Shown: positions 4,603 to 64,000 of the stretch, one piece after another
Position numbering within the stretch: the stretch's first letter is position 1
How the letters are laid out: every line of letters begins with the position of its first letter
Source: Microthyrium microscopicum
Lineage: Eukaryota; Ascomycota; Dothideomycetes; Microthyriales; Microthyriaceae
Assembly: GCA_010405405.1 (NCBI GenBank)
Contig: MU004235.1
Location: 2,240,426 to 2,304,425, forward strand
DNA: 64,000 nucleotides
Reading direction: 5' to 3'
Notes under the pieces: model-generated
What the model saw: only the letters and a program-made list of their open reading frames with translations
The model's database searches: none
What the model was told of the DNA's origin: nothing
Position numbers and translations under genes: made by a program

Positions 4603-6555
4603 ATGCGTTATGGCTTGATAAGTCTTAGACTTTCTCCCATTCAGGCGATACATTCACGACCTCTTAGACTTTCACAAGGGATCCGTCGGATACATGACAC
4701 TCGATTTTCACCTCTTGTCCCTCCCGATCCAAAATCTCTCCCGAAACCACGCTCTCCAACCTTTCGTCGCAAAAGACGGGCCTTCTTTCGCTTCACCGCA
4801 TACACAACTCTCACATTCGGCACATTATACTACGCCGATAAATACTTCAATGCCTCTTCTGTCACTCGCTCTGTGCGGACATTCTCTACCGCCCTCTTGA
4901 TCGGCATTGATTACAAGATCAACTTCCGGGCGCATCCGCCCTTCGCTTCATCCATTGAAGATGTACACAACCGAAATGCCCGGCGGGTGTTCGAGCTGAT
5001 TAGAGCAAATGGTGGGCTATACTTGAAGATTGGGCAGGCAATTGCCATGCAGAGTGCCGTGCTGCCTCCAGAGTTCCAAAAAATGTTTGGGCGCATGTTT
5101 GACGATGCGCCGCAAAATGACTGGGCCGATGTAGAAAAAGTCTTGCGCGAAGACTTCGGTATGTCTCCAGAAGAAATGTTTGGAGTAAGCTTTAGCGGTG
5201 AGCCGGGTAAGGGAGTTATGGAAAAGAAGGCGCGCGCAAGTGCCAGTGTTGCTCAAGTTCATTGGGCTAGACTAGCGGATGGTCGTGAAGTTGCAATCAA
5301 GATTCAGAAGCGTGAGATTGCAAAACAGCTCTGGTGGGATTTATCGGCTTTTCAAAACATAGCCAAGTTGTTCAGTTGGTGGTTTGAGATACCGTTCTAC
5401 AGCCTCGTTCCTAGTATTTGTGAACGCCTGCAGCTGGAGACGGATTTCGAAAATGAGGCAAACAATTCAGAGCAGATGAAAGCATTTATACAAGCCGAGC
5501 CACGACTACGAGACCGAGTGTATATACCTATCATCTACAAGGACTTGAGTTCAAAACGAGTACTCGTGGCGGAATGGATCGAAGGCTCGCGACTATGGGA
5601 CAAAGAAGCCATTACAAATCCCTGGTACGGTCAATATGGAACCGGAAGTCCAGGTGCAGGCGGAGCACCTCTGAAATGGCCAGCATCGACTACCCTGAAA
5701 GCCGATGATGAAGGATTCATGAAACCAGATCGCACTGACTGGCGTCAACCCAAAGGAAAAGGCGGACTCGGACTGTCCTTCAAATCCATTATGACAACAA
5801 TGGTAGATCTCTTTTCCGCACAAATGTTCCTCTTCGGCTTAGTCCACTGCGATCCTCACCCCGGAAATATCTTCGTGCGACGTCTACCATCCGGTAAAGC
5901 AGAGCTTGTACTCATTGATCACGGTCTATACATCTCCATGACACCCGAATTTCGCAGAACCTGGAGTGAGCTCTGGAAAGCGCTCATCGGTCTCGACAAT
6001 GCCAAAATCATCGAGATCGTCAAGAGCTGGGGCATCGACAATCCTGATATCTTTGCATCAATGACCCTGATGCGGCCATATGACGGCGGTGACGGAAGTA
6101 CCGCACGGTCGCTTGGTAGAGAACTCAAAGGCGCGACTGCGCAGGAGCGTGCATATGAGATGCATCAACGCTCAATGCATGGAATCAAACAAGTCCTTGG
6201 AGACGAGACCAAACTACCTCGAGAGCTCATTTTCATTCTCCGGAACTTGCGTATTGTACAAGGCAATAACCAATTCCTCGGATCTCCAGTCAACCGGATC
6301 AAGATCACTGGACTATGGGCTAGCAGATCACTCGTGGAAGATCGAGACCTGGCCCTGAGCCAAAGAGTGACAAATCTAGGCCGACATTTGGTTTTCAGAT
6401 TCGTCTTGCTTGTCACTGATATTGCCTGGTGGACGGCAAGATTCCGCCAAATGCTTGGCTTCGGAGGTGGAATGGAAGATGAGTTGGAAGCGAGACTTCG
6501 TACTGTAGCGAAGGACTTTGGTGTTGAGTTACAACATGGCGTGTTTGATGGATAG
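4603..6555 (+). CDS. MCP2: ABC1/UbiB-family atypical kinase, mitochondrial (Mcp2/ADCK1-like)
   Basis: Intron-less gene of 650 aa starting at ATG 4603. The first 60 residues are rich in Arg, Ser and Pro without acidic residues in the first 30, fitting a mitochondrial presequence, followed by a hydrophobic stretch near 70-80. The UbiB signatures are visible: the KxGQ motif (YLKIGQ, residues 140-145), the Ala/Ser-rich nucleotide loop (ARASASVAQVH, about 210-220) with AIKIQ after it, the catalytic HCDPHPGN (415-422) and LIDHG at 437-441 in place of kinase DFG. Family members of this group (yeast Mcp2/Cqd2, animal ADCK1/5) sit in mitochondria and influence lipid and coenzyme Q homeostasis. Assignment to the family is firm; assignment to the Mcp2 branch rather than Cqd1 is inferred from the overall look and less certain. 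It converges with the next gene, with 128 bp between stops. Confidence 0.93.
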   Translation: MRYGLISLRLSPIQAIHSRPLRLSQGIRRIHDTRFSPLVPPDPKSLPKPRSPTFRRKRRAFFRFTAYTTLTFGTLYYADKYFNASSVTRSVRTFSTALLIGIDYKINFRAHPPFASSIEDVHNRNARRVFELIRANGGLYLKIGQAIAMQSAVLPPEFQKMFGRMFDDAPQNDWADVEKVLREDFGMSPEEMFGVSFSGEPGKGVMEKKARASASVAQVHWARLADGREVAIKIQKREIAKQLWWDLSAFQNIAKLFSWWFEIPFYSLVPSICERLQLETDFENEANNSEQMKAFIQAEPRLRDRVYIPIIYKDLSSKRVLVAEWIEGSRLWDKEAITNPWYGQYGTGSPGAGGAPLKWPASTTLKADDEGFMKPDRTDWRQPKGKGGLGLSFKSIMTTMVDLFSAQMFLFGLVHCDPHPGNIFVRRLPSGKAELVLIDHGLYISMTPEFRRTWSELWKALIGLDNAKIIEIVKSWGIDNPDIFASMTLMRPYDGGDGSTARSLGRELKGATAQERAYEMHQRSMHGIKQVLGDETKLPRELIFILRNLRIVQGNNQFLGSPVNRIKITGLWASRSLVEDRDLALSQRVTNLGRHLVFRFVLLVTDIAWWTARFRQMLGFGGGMEDELEARLRTVAKDFGVELQHGVFDG

Positions 6556-60417: not shown

Positions 60418-61953
60418 CTAACATGCAAACATTTTTGTTGTGCTGACGTTTATCCTGCTCCACTTTTGACCCGTCCTCAGTGACATCCAAAACTGCATCG
60501 GCCAGTACACATGGTATAGCCACCATAGAGGCAGAGGATCCCGTCTCTCGAAAGTGCCATCGCGCCAGTGAACCAAGTGTTCGAAGAATAAGGATAGCTT
60601 GCGTGCTAGGTCTGTGAAAGAATTATTTGGCCGTAGAAGAAGTGGTGCGAATAGCGGCTGCAGTACAAGCTCAACGAGGTCATGGCCAATCCAGTAGTAT
60701 TTGTCCTGAAGTCGTGGTCTTATCGGCAAGTCCACACGGCCTTCGTTCTCGGCGTGACCATTCTGGTCGTTAGTTGGATTTGGTGCATCCAAGATTGAAA
60801 GATAGGCCGCTGCCATCTCCGGCGTACTGTTGAATAAGACCACAGCGGTATGGGCCCTGGGGTTGCATTCGATGGGATACAGTATCAAATCGGCATCTTC
60901 ACGGATGCTGTGTTCACCGTCCATCTGATGTTCTTCAACCATAAAGTCGAAACTGAGATGCCCAGTAAAGCCGCTTCCTGCTCTAGCCGCAAATTTCTGT
61001 GTAAACTCCAGCAAGGCTCGATCAAGTTTGCAATCGACTTGCAACGCAGCATAGTGCATGAGCAGTTCCGCACTAGGTAAAGAAGTAAAAAGCTTCACCG
61101 CGCCATTAATCACCAGAGCGTGAGTACAATACTCCGGCCCCTTGATATATTGCTGAAGTATCCACGGACACTTTGCAGAAATTGACAGTGTCTCCAAGTG
61201 CCTCTTGGTCTCCTTGTCCGTTGCCTTGGGAAGTAATGTCATATCGCCACGATGTGTATCGTCCATTCCTGTTGGCTTCATGATAAACTTGCGATCCTTC
61301 GGCGCCTGTCGCAGCGCTCTTTCCACCGCGTCCAAGCTAGTAATCTCATGTGTTTCTGGAACAGTGAGACCTATACTTTGGGTATGCTTGATGAAGCTAT
61401 GCTTCTCATGCAAGAGCTGTGTAGTCGTAACATTAAATTGTATTGCCTTGCATTTCGTCCTAGCTTCCAGGATCTCCTTGACTTCACCATCTTCTACTGC
61501 CGAAGCGACACCAGAACACGAACACCATAGATCAACGTCTTCGGCTTCCACGAGTCGAAGGATATCTTGAATATAAGCTCCCGAGCCTCTGACAGCATCT
61601 GGCTTCCGCAGTGTGAAGTATTTGGACAGTGAGGTGGATACTCGGCCGCATGCAAGTGAGGAAAAGTCTGCTCCAATGACATTGTGACCAGCTTCATAGA
61701 ATGATCGGGCAATGGCCAGTCCTTTGCTCATTCCAACGCCAGTGACAAGGATGGTTTTTGGTTGAAATGGTGATTTTTGCCTGGCCGCATTTCGACGTTT
61801 TTCTGCGGTTGATGGAGTAATCCGGTTTATTATCAAACTCGCAAGACATATCAACGTCGTCAAAGGTAGTAGTCCCAGGCTGAGAATGAGCAGTGAAATA
61901 TTTTTGAGCCAATGTCGGATTTGATTTAGGCGTGGGCCTATCATTGTTGACAT
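60418..61953 (-). CDS. ATP-grasp ligase, MysC-type (4-deoxygadusol:amino acid ligase), mycosporine pathway
   Basis: Single exon, 511 aa, from ATG 61953 (MSTMIGPRLNQIRHWLKNIS). A hydrophobic segment at about 19-43 (ISLLILSLGLLPLTTLICLA) matches the N-terminal hydrophobic region of cyanobacterial MysC. A pre-ATP-grasp domain follows (ILVTGVGMSKGLAIARSFYE), then the ATP-grasp fold: KFIMKPTGMDDTHRGD, CPWILQQYIKGPEYCTH, GHLSFDF, and the metal-binding YPIECNPRAHTAVVLF. These blocks align closely by eye with MysC (CPWI-Q-x-I-G-E-CTH; IECNPR-H). The MysC reaction joins 4-deoxygadusol to glycine; in fungi the amino acid may be another (glutamine, serine), giving mycosporines. It lies 524 bp downstream of the cyclase gene on the same strand, which supports the assignment. 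No MysD/MysE partner is seen, so the product would be a mono-substituted mycosporine. Confidence 0.88.
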   Translation of the reverse strand: MSTMIGPRLNQIRHWLKNISLLILSLGLLPLTTLICLASLIINRITPSTAEKRRNAARQKSPFQPKTILVTGVGMSKGLAIARSFYEAGHNVIGADFSSLACGRVSTSLSKYFTLRKPDAVRGSGAYIQDILRLVEAEDVDLWCSCSGVASAVEDGEVKEILEARTKCKAIQFNVTTTQLLHEKHSFIKHTQSIGLTVPETHEITSLDAVERALRQAPKDRKFIMKPTGMDDTHRGDMTLLPKATDKETKRHLETLSISAKCPWILQQYIKGPEYCTHALVINGAVKLFTSLPSAELLMHYAALQVDCKLDRALLEFTQKFAARAGSGFTGHLSFDFMVEEHQMDGEHSIREDADLILYPIECNPRAHTAVVLFNSTPEMAAAYLSILDAPNPTNDQNGHAENEGRVDLPIRPRLQDKYYWIGHDLVELVLQPLFAPLLLRPNNSFTDLARKLSLFFEHLVHWRDGTFERRDPLPLWWLYHVYWPMQFWMSLRTGQKWSRINVSTTKMFAC

Positions 61954-62477
61954 GGCAGTATTTATATGGCAGCTATGTTAACAGATATCGCCTGAGCGCA
62001 GCATCTATCATTGTTTGCCACTATGGTCAATGGTAACAAGCGTCCGAAATTGAGGTAGAATGAAAATGAACAGGACTGACTCCGGTGCTCGGCTGTATTA
62101 GTCAAAGGATAAAAGAAAGCTAATGTATACGTCATGACTGTATCCTGTAAGCTAATAACAGCCTCCAGAATGCTCGTTTACATGTGCCGCTCTTGCTTGA
62201 AATAAAATGAGGGAAATGAGGTGGAAGCAGAACTACAGAAGTTCGACATATTAGTAATCTCCATTTCCGTTCACGATTACGGTCAGATCTGTTCTTTTGA
62301 TTTCCAAACATAATAATTGATGTCTATACTTTAGAGTGCCAGAGCTGCATCTTTTTACCCAAAATCGAAATGGAACCACCATCGCTTATGCTGTTTGACA
62401 ATTATTACCCACCCATCAGAAGTGGACACAGCAGTTCGCAACCCATCAACCATCAGCATGGTTCAGAAAGTATCCGC
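61954..62477. promoter_or_regulatory. Intergenic region between the two mycosporine genes
   Basis: About 520 bp between the stop of the cyclase gene and the ATG of the ATP-grasp gene, both on the minus strand. It is wide enough for an own promoter, so the genes are probably transcribed separately. No motif is recognised. Confidence 0.4.
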
Positions 62478-64000
62478 TCATGCACCATTGCTGACACCAT
62501 TTTGTACACCATTCGTGGCAGCGGCCTTGACGCCATTGCTGTCACCGTTCTTGGCTCCGTTACTATGGCCGTTCTGGACCCCGTTGCCAACGCCATTGGG
62601 GATGACCGTCTTTAGGTCGTTAGCCACGCCGTTCTTGACTTCACCATTGGCTAAATCGTCGTTGAGCACATTGATCTTGACAGCATTCGAATCGCTGGTA
62701 GTCGTCATAACCGACTTGCCGTTCATGGTGTAGCCAGTATCGCTCGGGTCCACAAAGGCATCAATACCCTCACCATTGCGAGGATAGCCCTTCATGATTT
62801 CCTTGTGCTTGCGTAAGGCAGCAAGGAGATCTTCCTGTGACACGTCGTTCAAGAAAACGCACTTCCCAAGTGGACTTGGAACGGCCGCTCGTAAAAGACC
62901 ATCTCTTGTTCTCAAAATTGCTTGTGTACCCTTGTCGAGAATTTCTTCGTCGAATTGAGGATGGTCCATTGATAAACCGGCCTTGGAGAACAGGTTGAGT
63001 AGACGCTCATGTTGCTCATTGCTAAGCAAACCTTGGACGTTAGCCAGTGTAGCGGAATAAGCCATATCAATTGAAATGGCATGACCATGTCGTAGAGGAA
63101 CTTCAGGTACTAGTTCATGTAGAGGGGACCACCTGTGGAGGTTAGTAATGAGAAATATATTGTCTGACAAAAGCTTCTTACGTATGTCCGTAGGCAATGA
63201 CTCTATCGAGACCAATTTCGTGTAAGTTTGGCGTCTCGAGTTTCAACATCTCGTAGATACCGGCCTTGTTGATTGTATCTGCTGCATCACGCACCTCTTG
63301 GGATGCGCCATCGGCACGACCAAATGCAGTACCAATGAGCTGCTCACAGTATTTGTCGAGGAGATCGAAGGTAGAGATGTGAGCACAAGATGATATCTTG
63401 ATCAACTCTGCAAATCCATTGCGAATCTGGGCCTCTGGAAGTGTTCGCAGAAAGCTAAAGTCAAGAAATGTTTTCATGGGCGCATGATAAGCACCAAGAC
63501 GATTCTTATAGTTGCCATGATTGACAGCTACCTTGATCGAAACCGATGCATCAATCAGACCAATCAAGGTCGTTGGAACACGAATGAAGTTCGTGTTTCG
63601 TCGGTAAGCGGCGGCAGCGAAACTATATCAGGTCAGTATGTTATCGTGGTGAAAGTGTAGCGTAGACAGAGGACTTTGTACCCAGCGACGTCAGTAACTA
63701 GTCCACCTCCAACAACGAGAACCGGTTCCTAGGGAAGTCAGCCAAAGTTTATCTCATCATATTGCGCGTGATTTACTTTTCTGTAAATGCCAAACTTGGT
63801 CATGGAATCCACAATGCTCAAGAATGTATCGATGGTTTTTGCTTTCTCACCAATCTTGGTCTTATGCACGCTCAGGGTGATGTCGTGGTGATCGAAATAC
63901 TTCTGAATCTGCATGCCATAGCTGTTGAAGATGTTGGCGTCCATGACAGCCAAACATCTGCCCCATCTTTTGTAGCTTTCCGCAAGGTTGGGCTTCGAGG
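62478..64000 (-). CDS. Sedoheptulose-7-phosphate cyclase, desmethyl-4-deoxygadusol synthase type (MysA-like), 5'-partial
   Basis: Cut by the right edge. Visible exons: 64000-63777, 63728-63682, 63622-63182 and 63132-62478, giving 454 residues in frame; perhaps 50-80 N-terminal residues are missing. The dehydroquinate-synthase fold is clear: [16 protein letters not shown] across exons 1-2, [51 protein letters not shown], and YGHTWSPLHE joined across the last intron, with [14 protein letters not shown] providing metal-site His. The AAYRRNT and [14 protein letters not shown] blocks are those of sugar phosphate cyclases using sedoheptulose 7-phosphate, not of true dehydroquinate synthases. Next to a MysC-type ligase this points to desmethyl-4-deoxygadusol synthase. 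The C-terminus carries an unusual tail of eleven Asn-Gly pairs in about the last 56 residues. A 2-epi-5-epi-valiolone synthase is the main alternative. Introns are 48, 59 and 49 nt. Confidence 0.88.
62481..62648 (-). repeat. Asn-Gly-rich coding repeat in the cyclase C-terminus
   Basis: The last 56 codons of the cyclase contain eleven NG dipeptides spaced 3-10 residues apart ([20 protein letters not shown] is a representative part). At DNA level this is a degenerate array of AATGG-like and AACGG-like words. It lies beyond the conserved enzyme fold. Confidence 0.85.

Follow-up and report, generated by a model that had tools for sequence, protein, structure and literature searches.

The 64,000-nucleotide stretch of the Microthyrium microscopicum genome analysed here (the window; contig MU004235.1, positions 2,240,426 to 2,304,425, i.e. 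G000:C6:2240426-2304425 in a source genome of 36.9 Mb and 20 contigs) ends in what is very probably a fungal biosynthetic cluster for a mycosporine, a natural sunscreen against UV, carrying the core pathway. A desmethyl-4-deoxygadusol synthase (DDGS, a cyclase of the MysA type), an O-methyltransferase (OMT) and an ATP-grasp ligase of the MysC type (ATPG) are clustered within 5.8 kb of one contig (window 60418 to L003:6225). The core cluster is a known kind of system, and that fungi carry such mycosporine genes has been reported: besides the Phaffia cluster, the text of PMC10057719 names homologues in P. tritici-repentis and P. nodorum, both DHQS-like and ATP-grasp ones. What makes the present cluster a variant is the family of its methyltransferase and, resting on one genome, the clustered gene for a protein with adenylation, carrier and thioester reductase domains (A-T-R). 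The enzyme identities rest on sequence, phylogeny, bacterial synteny and fold, and the reactions are proposed from characterised relatives.

The sequence-only reading had described two adjacent same-strand genes with cyclase and ligase motifs, and both indeed lie on the minus strand, the cyclase motifs in exons 2 and 3 and the ligase motifs in a single frame. The ligase gene is one open frame without an intron, in which CPWILQQYIKGPEYCTH and IECNPRAHT are present. The DDGS gene is not one open reading frame; its model gives 490 aa from four exons, the three introns between them (48, 59 and 49 bases) all being of the GT-AG type, and because the first exon extends 106 bases past the window end, the window coordinates cut the gene. 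The OMT gene is divergent from that of DDGS at a distance of 1165 bases, and the A-T-R gene lies 588 bases beyond OMT on the same strand. The genes are listed below, where L003 is G000:C6:2300426-2310425 (L003 position = window position minus 60000) and L004 directly continues L003.

Window 60418..61953, minus strand: ATPG, the MysC-type ATP-grasp ligase, in one exon; 511 aa counted from the ATG selected as start, with a hydrophobic stretch at the N-terminus
Window 62478..63132, minus strand: DDGS exon 4, Asn/Gly-rich C-terminal tail and stop
Window 63182..63622, minus strand: DDGS exon 3, carrying AAYRRNT and HGNYKN
Window 63682..63728, minus strand: DDGS exon 2, carrying another of the cyclase motifs named earlier
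Window 63777..64106, minus strand: DDGS exon 1, of which the window holds 63777..64000; start codon 106 bases past the window end (L003:4001-4106)
L003:5272-5328, 5376-6140 and 6187-6225, plus strand: OMT, 286 aa, three exons, beyond the window on the same contig
L003:6814-10000 and L004:1-47, plus strand: A-T-R protein, 1077 aa, beyond the window on the same contig

Identity of the cyclase and the ligase

The gene at window 62478-64000 (minus strand) is, judged by its sequence, a DDGS of the MysA type. Its product passes the Pfam cut-offs of DHQ_synthase, at 113.5 bits, and of DHQS_C, at 49.9 bits, and in a search of the PDB it scores 495.9 bits with 5tpr, 230.6 with the EEVS (valiolone synthase) ValA (4p53) and at most 116 with the other 14 chains. 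The Anabaena enzyme 5tpr, with which the fungal cyclase shares 56% identity, is labelled 3-dehydroquinate synthase in the PDB and is taken by us to be a DDGS. A tree of 70 rows was made from 36 DDGS, 7 EEVS and 26 dehydroquinate synthase (DHQS) sequences and the fungal one, the EEVS and DHQS rows having been grouped by score, ValA excepted; it took 14 of the 41 Mycobacteriales DDGS loci and all 20 cyanobacterial ones, and omitted L116-L123, L085-L093, L098 and L099 as repeats of genomes already included. In this tree the fungal cyclase joins the DDGS rows at 100/100 and the DHQS rows are separate at 100/97, while the EEVS rows do not form one group and the DDGS rows without the fungal row form one side in 53% of bootstraps. 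With eight long or unsure rows removed, the resulting 62-row tree unites the fungal cyclase with DDGS at 100/100 and sets DHQS apart at 100/100.

The same assignment emerges at the level of individual residues. At the 26 alignment columns that separate DDGS from EEVS, the fungal cyclase has the DDGS residue in 22, the EEVS residue in 1 and another in 3, and at the 49 columns separating DDGS from DHQS the numbers are 42, 3 (DHQS) and 4 (other); L101 and L102 (unsure EEVS) and L082-L084 were left out of this comparison. A268 and T347 of the Anabaena enzyme, presumably fingerprint sites of the active site, have counterparts in A269 and T348. The Phaffia authors recognised DDGS against DHQS by a diagnostic peptide, according to the text of PMC10057719, and the fungal cyclase matches 24 of its 30 residues. 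In the whole 36.9-Mb genome there is one other match to PF01761, a 1626-aa open frame on contig C4, which from its size we take to be a DHQS of the AROM type. Together with the short spliced introns and a Zn2Cys6 regulator (see below), this large frame marks the gene content as fungal.

Two observations were made on other members of the superfamily. Three DDGS-bearing cyanobacterial genomes hold an extra PF01761 protein (L082, L083 and L084), and these form a long-branched group of their own on the DHQS side. In one Rhodococcus genome, a further DDGS-like match besides the first lies at G227:C17:58723-59850 and is 41% identical to the Anabaena enzyme.

The gene at window 60418-61953 (minus strand) encodes, by homology and fold, an ATP-grasp ligase of the MysC type. 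When bacterial and archaeal genomes were scanned for relatives of the cyclase, 61 bacterial DDGS loci were obtained (20 from cyanobacteria and 41 from Mycobacteriales), and in all 61 a tblastn search with the fungal ligase as query hits a homologue on the downstream side of DDGS, the best segments mostly spanning residue 2-68 to 508 (168-508 in L014, and 66-289 only in L051, at a contig end); a MysB open reading frame is present in the same 61 of 61. No relative was found in a scan of viral contigs (96 stretches) or in the first scan of genome contigs (20 stretches). The fungal ligase shares 30-34% identity with the 22 bacterial MysC sequences (of the 61) that were aligned with it, and K184, K226, D336, E362, N364 and R366, the presumed catalytic residues, are invariant across the 23 rows. 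A structure model of the ligase (pLDDT 78.2, pTM 0.83) has the ATP-grasp fold according to Foldseek, with 2pn1 as the best match (4.4e-12) and GAR synthetases, PurK and L-amino acid ligases among the top matches. The source genome has one match to the ligase, of 5 candidates scored. Accordingly, the MysA-type and MysC-type identities that had been read from the letters both held: the cyclase did not group with valiolone or dehydroquinate synthases, nor did the ligase fall outside the MysC homologues, which were the outcomes named beforehand as speaking against them.

An N-terminal hydrophobic stretch was seen in all 16 ligase rows (15 of them bacterial) that fill 30 or more of the first 70 columns of the alignment, and because it recurs in every row judged, MysC-type ligases may be membrane-anchored.

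The methyltransferase and the A-T-R protein

The cyclase and the ligase had been proposed to make a mono-substituted mycosporine as a pair. The enzymes fit such a product; the pair alone would not suffice, as a methyltransferase is needed, and one was found next door, outside the window. Its sequence indicates that the missing middle step is that of the adjoining OMT, a member of the catechol-O-methyltransferase (COMT) family and not an orthologue of MysB. The protein matches Methyltransf_3 over the Pfam cut-off (49.1 bits), and its best PDB matches are catechol O-methyltransferases (5zy5, 161.1 bits), the best of another family reaching 55.6. A profile of MysB, by comparison, finds 3r3h (164.6 bits) and 2avd (132.5), the next COMT-labelled chain following at 68.7; 2avd, itself labelled catechol-O-methyltransferase, we assume to belong to OMT3, and the tree placed it there. 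This tree had 27 rows (25 different), including 13 of the 61 MysB proteins, each minus its first 100 residues, and a single split at 100/100 divides the fungal OMT, a paralogue from its own genome (40% identical) and three COMT chains from the 13 MysB and five OMT3 chains. The fungal OMT thus stands outside the MysB proteins, which group with OMT3/CCoAOMT, and orthology with MysB was rejected on the PDB searches and this split.

Since the OMT falls in the COMT group and MysB in the OMT3 group, the methylation step in the fungus would use a different family than in bacteria, and this suggests that fungi did not just adopt the bacterial pathway in its entirety. The cluster resembles the bacterial mysABC loci in its cyclase and ligase, and differs from them in the methyltransferase, in gene order and strands, and in many conserved columns of the ligase (see below). 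The Phaffia rhodozyma MYC cluster is also composed of DDGS, OMT and ATPG, with DDGS divergent from OMT as here (PMC10057719); in that cluster, however, ATPG comes after OMT, whereas here it comes after DDGS and OMT is followed by the A-T-R gene, which the three-gene Phaffia cluster lacks. The word "catechol" is absent from the main text of the Phaffia paper.

The A-T-R protein matches AMP-binding, PP-binding and NAD_binding_4, all over the Pfam cut-off, i.e. an adenylation domain, a carrier and a thioester reductase; FGIDS, GATGFLG and YSQSK are present, and the carrier and reductase motifs are intact. In adenylation domains that activate amino acids, an Asp of the A4 motif binds the amino group. 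The A4 motif of the present protein reads TTTPLYHGGPADIF and has, in a weak alignment, no Asp alignable to this amino-binding Asp, which would fit a substrate with a blocked amine, for example a mycosporine-amino acid. At least three further proteins with an A-T-R core are encoded in the source genome (L069, L070 and L071), the nearest paralogue, L069, having 28% identity over residues 470-1010 (7 genome candidates scored); by eye, two other candidates resemble an A-T-R-dehydrogenase (L070) and a Lys2-like protein. The A-T-R core is shared with the ChNPS10-type synthetases, but this type was rejected for the cluster protein, as the subfamily described in PMC2823734 carries an extra dehydrogenase domain that the cluster protein lacks and that L070, elsewhere in the genome, appears to have.

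Carboxylic acid reductases were found over the cut-off in 32 of the 41 actinobacterial DDGS genomes. In 7 of the 41, all Rhodococcus/Rhodococcoides (L032, L033, L043 and genomes G205, G206, G216 and G227), the reductase gene lies within 15 kb of DDGS (2.9-13 kb) in differing orientations; in four Mycobacterium/Mycolicibacterium genomes the distance is 50-69 kb and in one further genome 599 kb, and in the remaining genomes the reductase is on another contig or was not found. Because this linkage is confined to one lineage and its spacing is loose, we did not count it as support.

The proposed pathway and its alternatives

In the pathway that we propose, DDGS would convert sedoheptulose 7-phosphate to desmethyl-4-deoxygadusol, the COMT-family methyltransferase would convert the latter to 4-deoxygadusol, and the MysC-type ligase would activate the ring with ATP and condense a single amino compound onto it; the resulting mono-substituted mycosporine would absorb near 310 nm. 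These steps are modelled on the Phaffia pathway (PMC10057719) and on the cyanobacterial one as it is described in PMC5666432 and PMC4426668. Matches of the MysD type (D-Ala ligase-like) number 8 in the genome, none of them on the cluster's contig C6, which agrees with a mono-substituted product; D-Ala ligase-type frames occur elsewhere in the genome (e.g. L133 and L134). The amino compound that is joined cannot be read from the sequence, and on this we concur with the sequence-only reading.

Fungal mycosporines often carry amino alcohols, and cyanobacterial ones amino acids. The odds are, in our estimate, about even that the amino alcohol typical of fungal mycosporines arises here from a mycosporine-amino acid through reduction by the A-T-R protein, a proposal drawn from adjacency and chemistry: the protein would activate the carboxylate of the mycosporine-amino acid, load it onto the carrier and, with NAD(P)H as the reductant, turn it into the alcohol (of the glutaminol or serinol type). 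The more general proposal is a shade under even, namely that the ligase of this fungus, like that of other ascomycetes, couples the ring to glutamine or serine, both ordinary amino acids, after which the clustered A-T-R protein, as the missing fourth enzyme and acting on a substrate with no free amine, carries out a four-electron reduction to the alcohol on the finished mycosporine, the methyltransferase having been recruited independently from the COMT family. The A-T-R step is favoured by the position of the gene, by the domain chemistry and by a remark on Hypoxylaceae in PMC8403587, where NRPS-like (nonribosomal peptide synthetase-like) genes are mentioned together with mycosporine-type clusters of ascomycetes in a passage on A-T-R enzymes; the passage gives no product and no amino-alcohol role, and does not plainly state the domain set. 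If true, the reductase could account for the presence of an amino alcohol, in place of an amino acid, on the ring of the fungal compounds. The gene bears on the question of where the acceptor or alcohol comes from and opens a direct genetic test, and its product is a candidate for a fourth enzyme in the yeast-based production of natural UV filters. No gene assigned to the difference between amino alcohol and amino acid was found in the openly licensed literature (titles and starts of abstracts), and subscription papers may hold one.

Several observations weigh against the assignments made above. The tree tool flags the branch of the fungal cyclase as long in both the 70-row and the 62-row tree. 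In the case of the ligase, there is no Pfam match at E 0.1, the NCBIfam matches are under the cut-off, a PDB sequence search with the ligase alone gives a best E of 0.16, and the ligase profile has its best PDB sequence match in the N-terminal part, to a short-chain dehydrogenase (E 5.6e-4), and reaches only 0.011 with 2pn1; moreover, bacterial MysC proteins share 136 conserved columns, of which the fungal ligase keeps only 71 and differs in 65, so that it may act on another substrate. In tblastn, the fungal OMT hits the position of MysB in only 43 of the 61 bacterial loci, at 22-31% identity, and its proposed reaction rests on position and on the Phaffia case. The linkage of the A-T-R gene to the cluster rests on adjacency in one genome, and in S. 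cerevisiae the three Phaffia genes, without an A-T-R gene, are reported to give mycosporine-glutaminol, with a peak that co-migrates with the one from Phaffia itself (PMC10057719).

This last point leads to the alternative in which a mycosporine-amino acid is the product of the three core genes, or these use a ready-made amino alcohol, and the A-T-R gene beside them has no part in the pathway, perhaps forming a small cluster of its own with the Zn2Cys6-type gene that follows it; we give it an appreciable, though minority, chance. By the account in PMC10057719, deletions and yeast expression back a three-gene pathway in Phaffia, in which three genes are enough and the ligase joins glutaminol, and the presence of further A-T-R-core proteins in the source genome and the knowledge of this neighbourhood from one fungal genome point the same way. 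The yeast product was, however, assigned from its retention time and its absorption spectrum; apart from LC-MS (liquid chromatography-mass spectrometry) in one reference, the main text of that paper contains no term for mass spectrometry or NMR, and mycosporine-glutamine might not be distinguishable from mycosporine-glutaminol by its spectrum. Also set against an unrelated neighbour are the distance of 588 bases between the A-T-R gene and OMT and the strand that they share, as well as the statement in PMC8403587 that NRPS-like genes accompany "mycosporine-like" clusters in most Hypoxylaceae.

In an improbable variant, the A-T-R protein would be the functional counterpart of the NRPS-like enzyme that takes the fourth step in Anabaena (PMC5666432), activating a free amino acid and joining it to the ring ketone, with reductive release of a di-substituted, imine-type product bearing an amino alcohol arm. 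The domain logic of adenylation, carrier and release would allow it, but fungi are said in PMC10057719 to make only mono-substituted aminocyclohexenones. The A4 motif, too, is without the alignable Asp whose amino-binding role we assume here, the alignment being weak. Far less probable still, and hardly to be entertained, is a cyclase that is a valiolone or dehydroquinate synthase in a locus making another cyclitol. Membership of the same superfamily, the Pfam name DHQ_synthase and a best NCBIfam match to aroB (under that family's own cut-off) are what would lead one to it; the PDB bit scores, the trees and the diagnostic columns favour DDGS, ligase and OMT partners stand beside the cyclase, and we rejected both identities on the sequence evidence.

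Surroundings of the cluster

The GC (guanine plus cytosine) content of the four cluster genes is 0.460-0.482 and that of the window 0.478, and as the genes match their surroundings, a recent foreign origin is not apparent. On the ligase side, the next recognisable gene encodes a GHMP kinase, presumably a mevalonate kinase. A run of PADLOC returned 0 families. On the other side, the A-T-R gene is followed by one more feature:

From L004:401, plus strand: candidate Zn2Cys6 regulator, beyond the window, with Cys spacing 2-6-8-2-6 across a presumed intron

This candidate has no Pfam match at E 0.01, and another Zn2Cys6 regulator, at L004:4994-6145, is over the Pfam cut-off. Past the candidate, L004:3720-9481 holds frames resembling PAF-acetylhydrolase, Zn2Cys6, NmrA and, weakly, GT8; the GT8-like frame is under the Pfam cut-off, and a glycosyltransferase at this place would be relevant to the making of a mycosporine glucoside.

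The intergenic stretches L003:4107-5271, L003:6226-6813, window 61954-62477 and L004:48-412 were compared for shared words of length 7, 8 and 9. The first three share fewer 7-mers than expected (3 against 8.5). The 8-mer TTTCCAAA is common to all four, where 0.01 shared 8-mers are expected, which is too weak to call a regulatory site. Finally, the Asn/Gly-rich tail of DDGS (window 62478-62650) lies outside the portion aligned to the Anabaena enzyme 5tpr, and the DNA at 62483-62553 contains an imperfect 24-base repeat in 2.9 copies.

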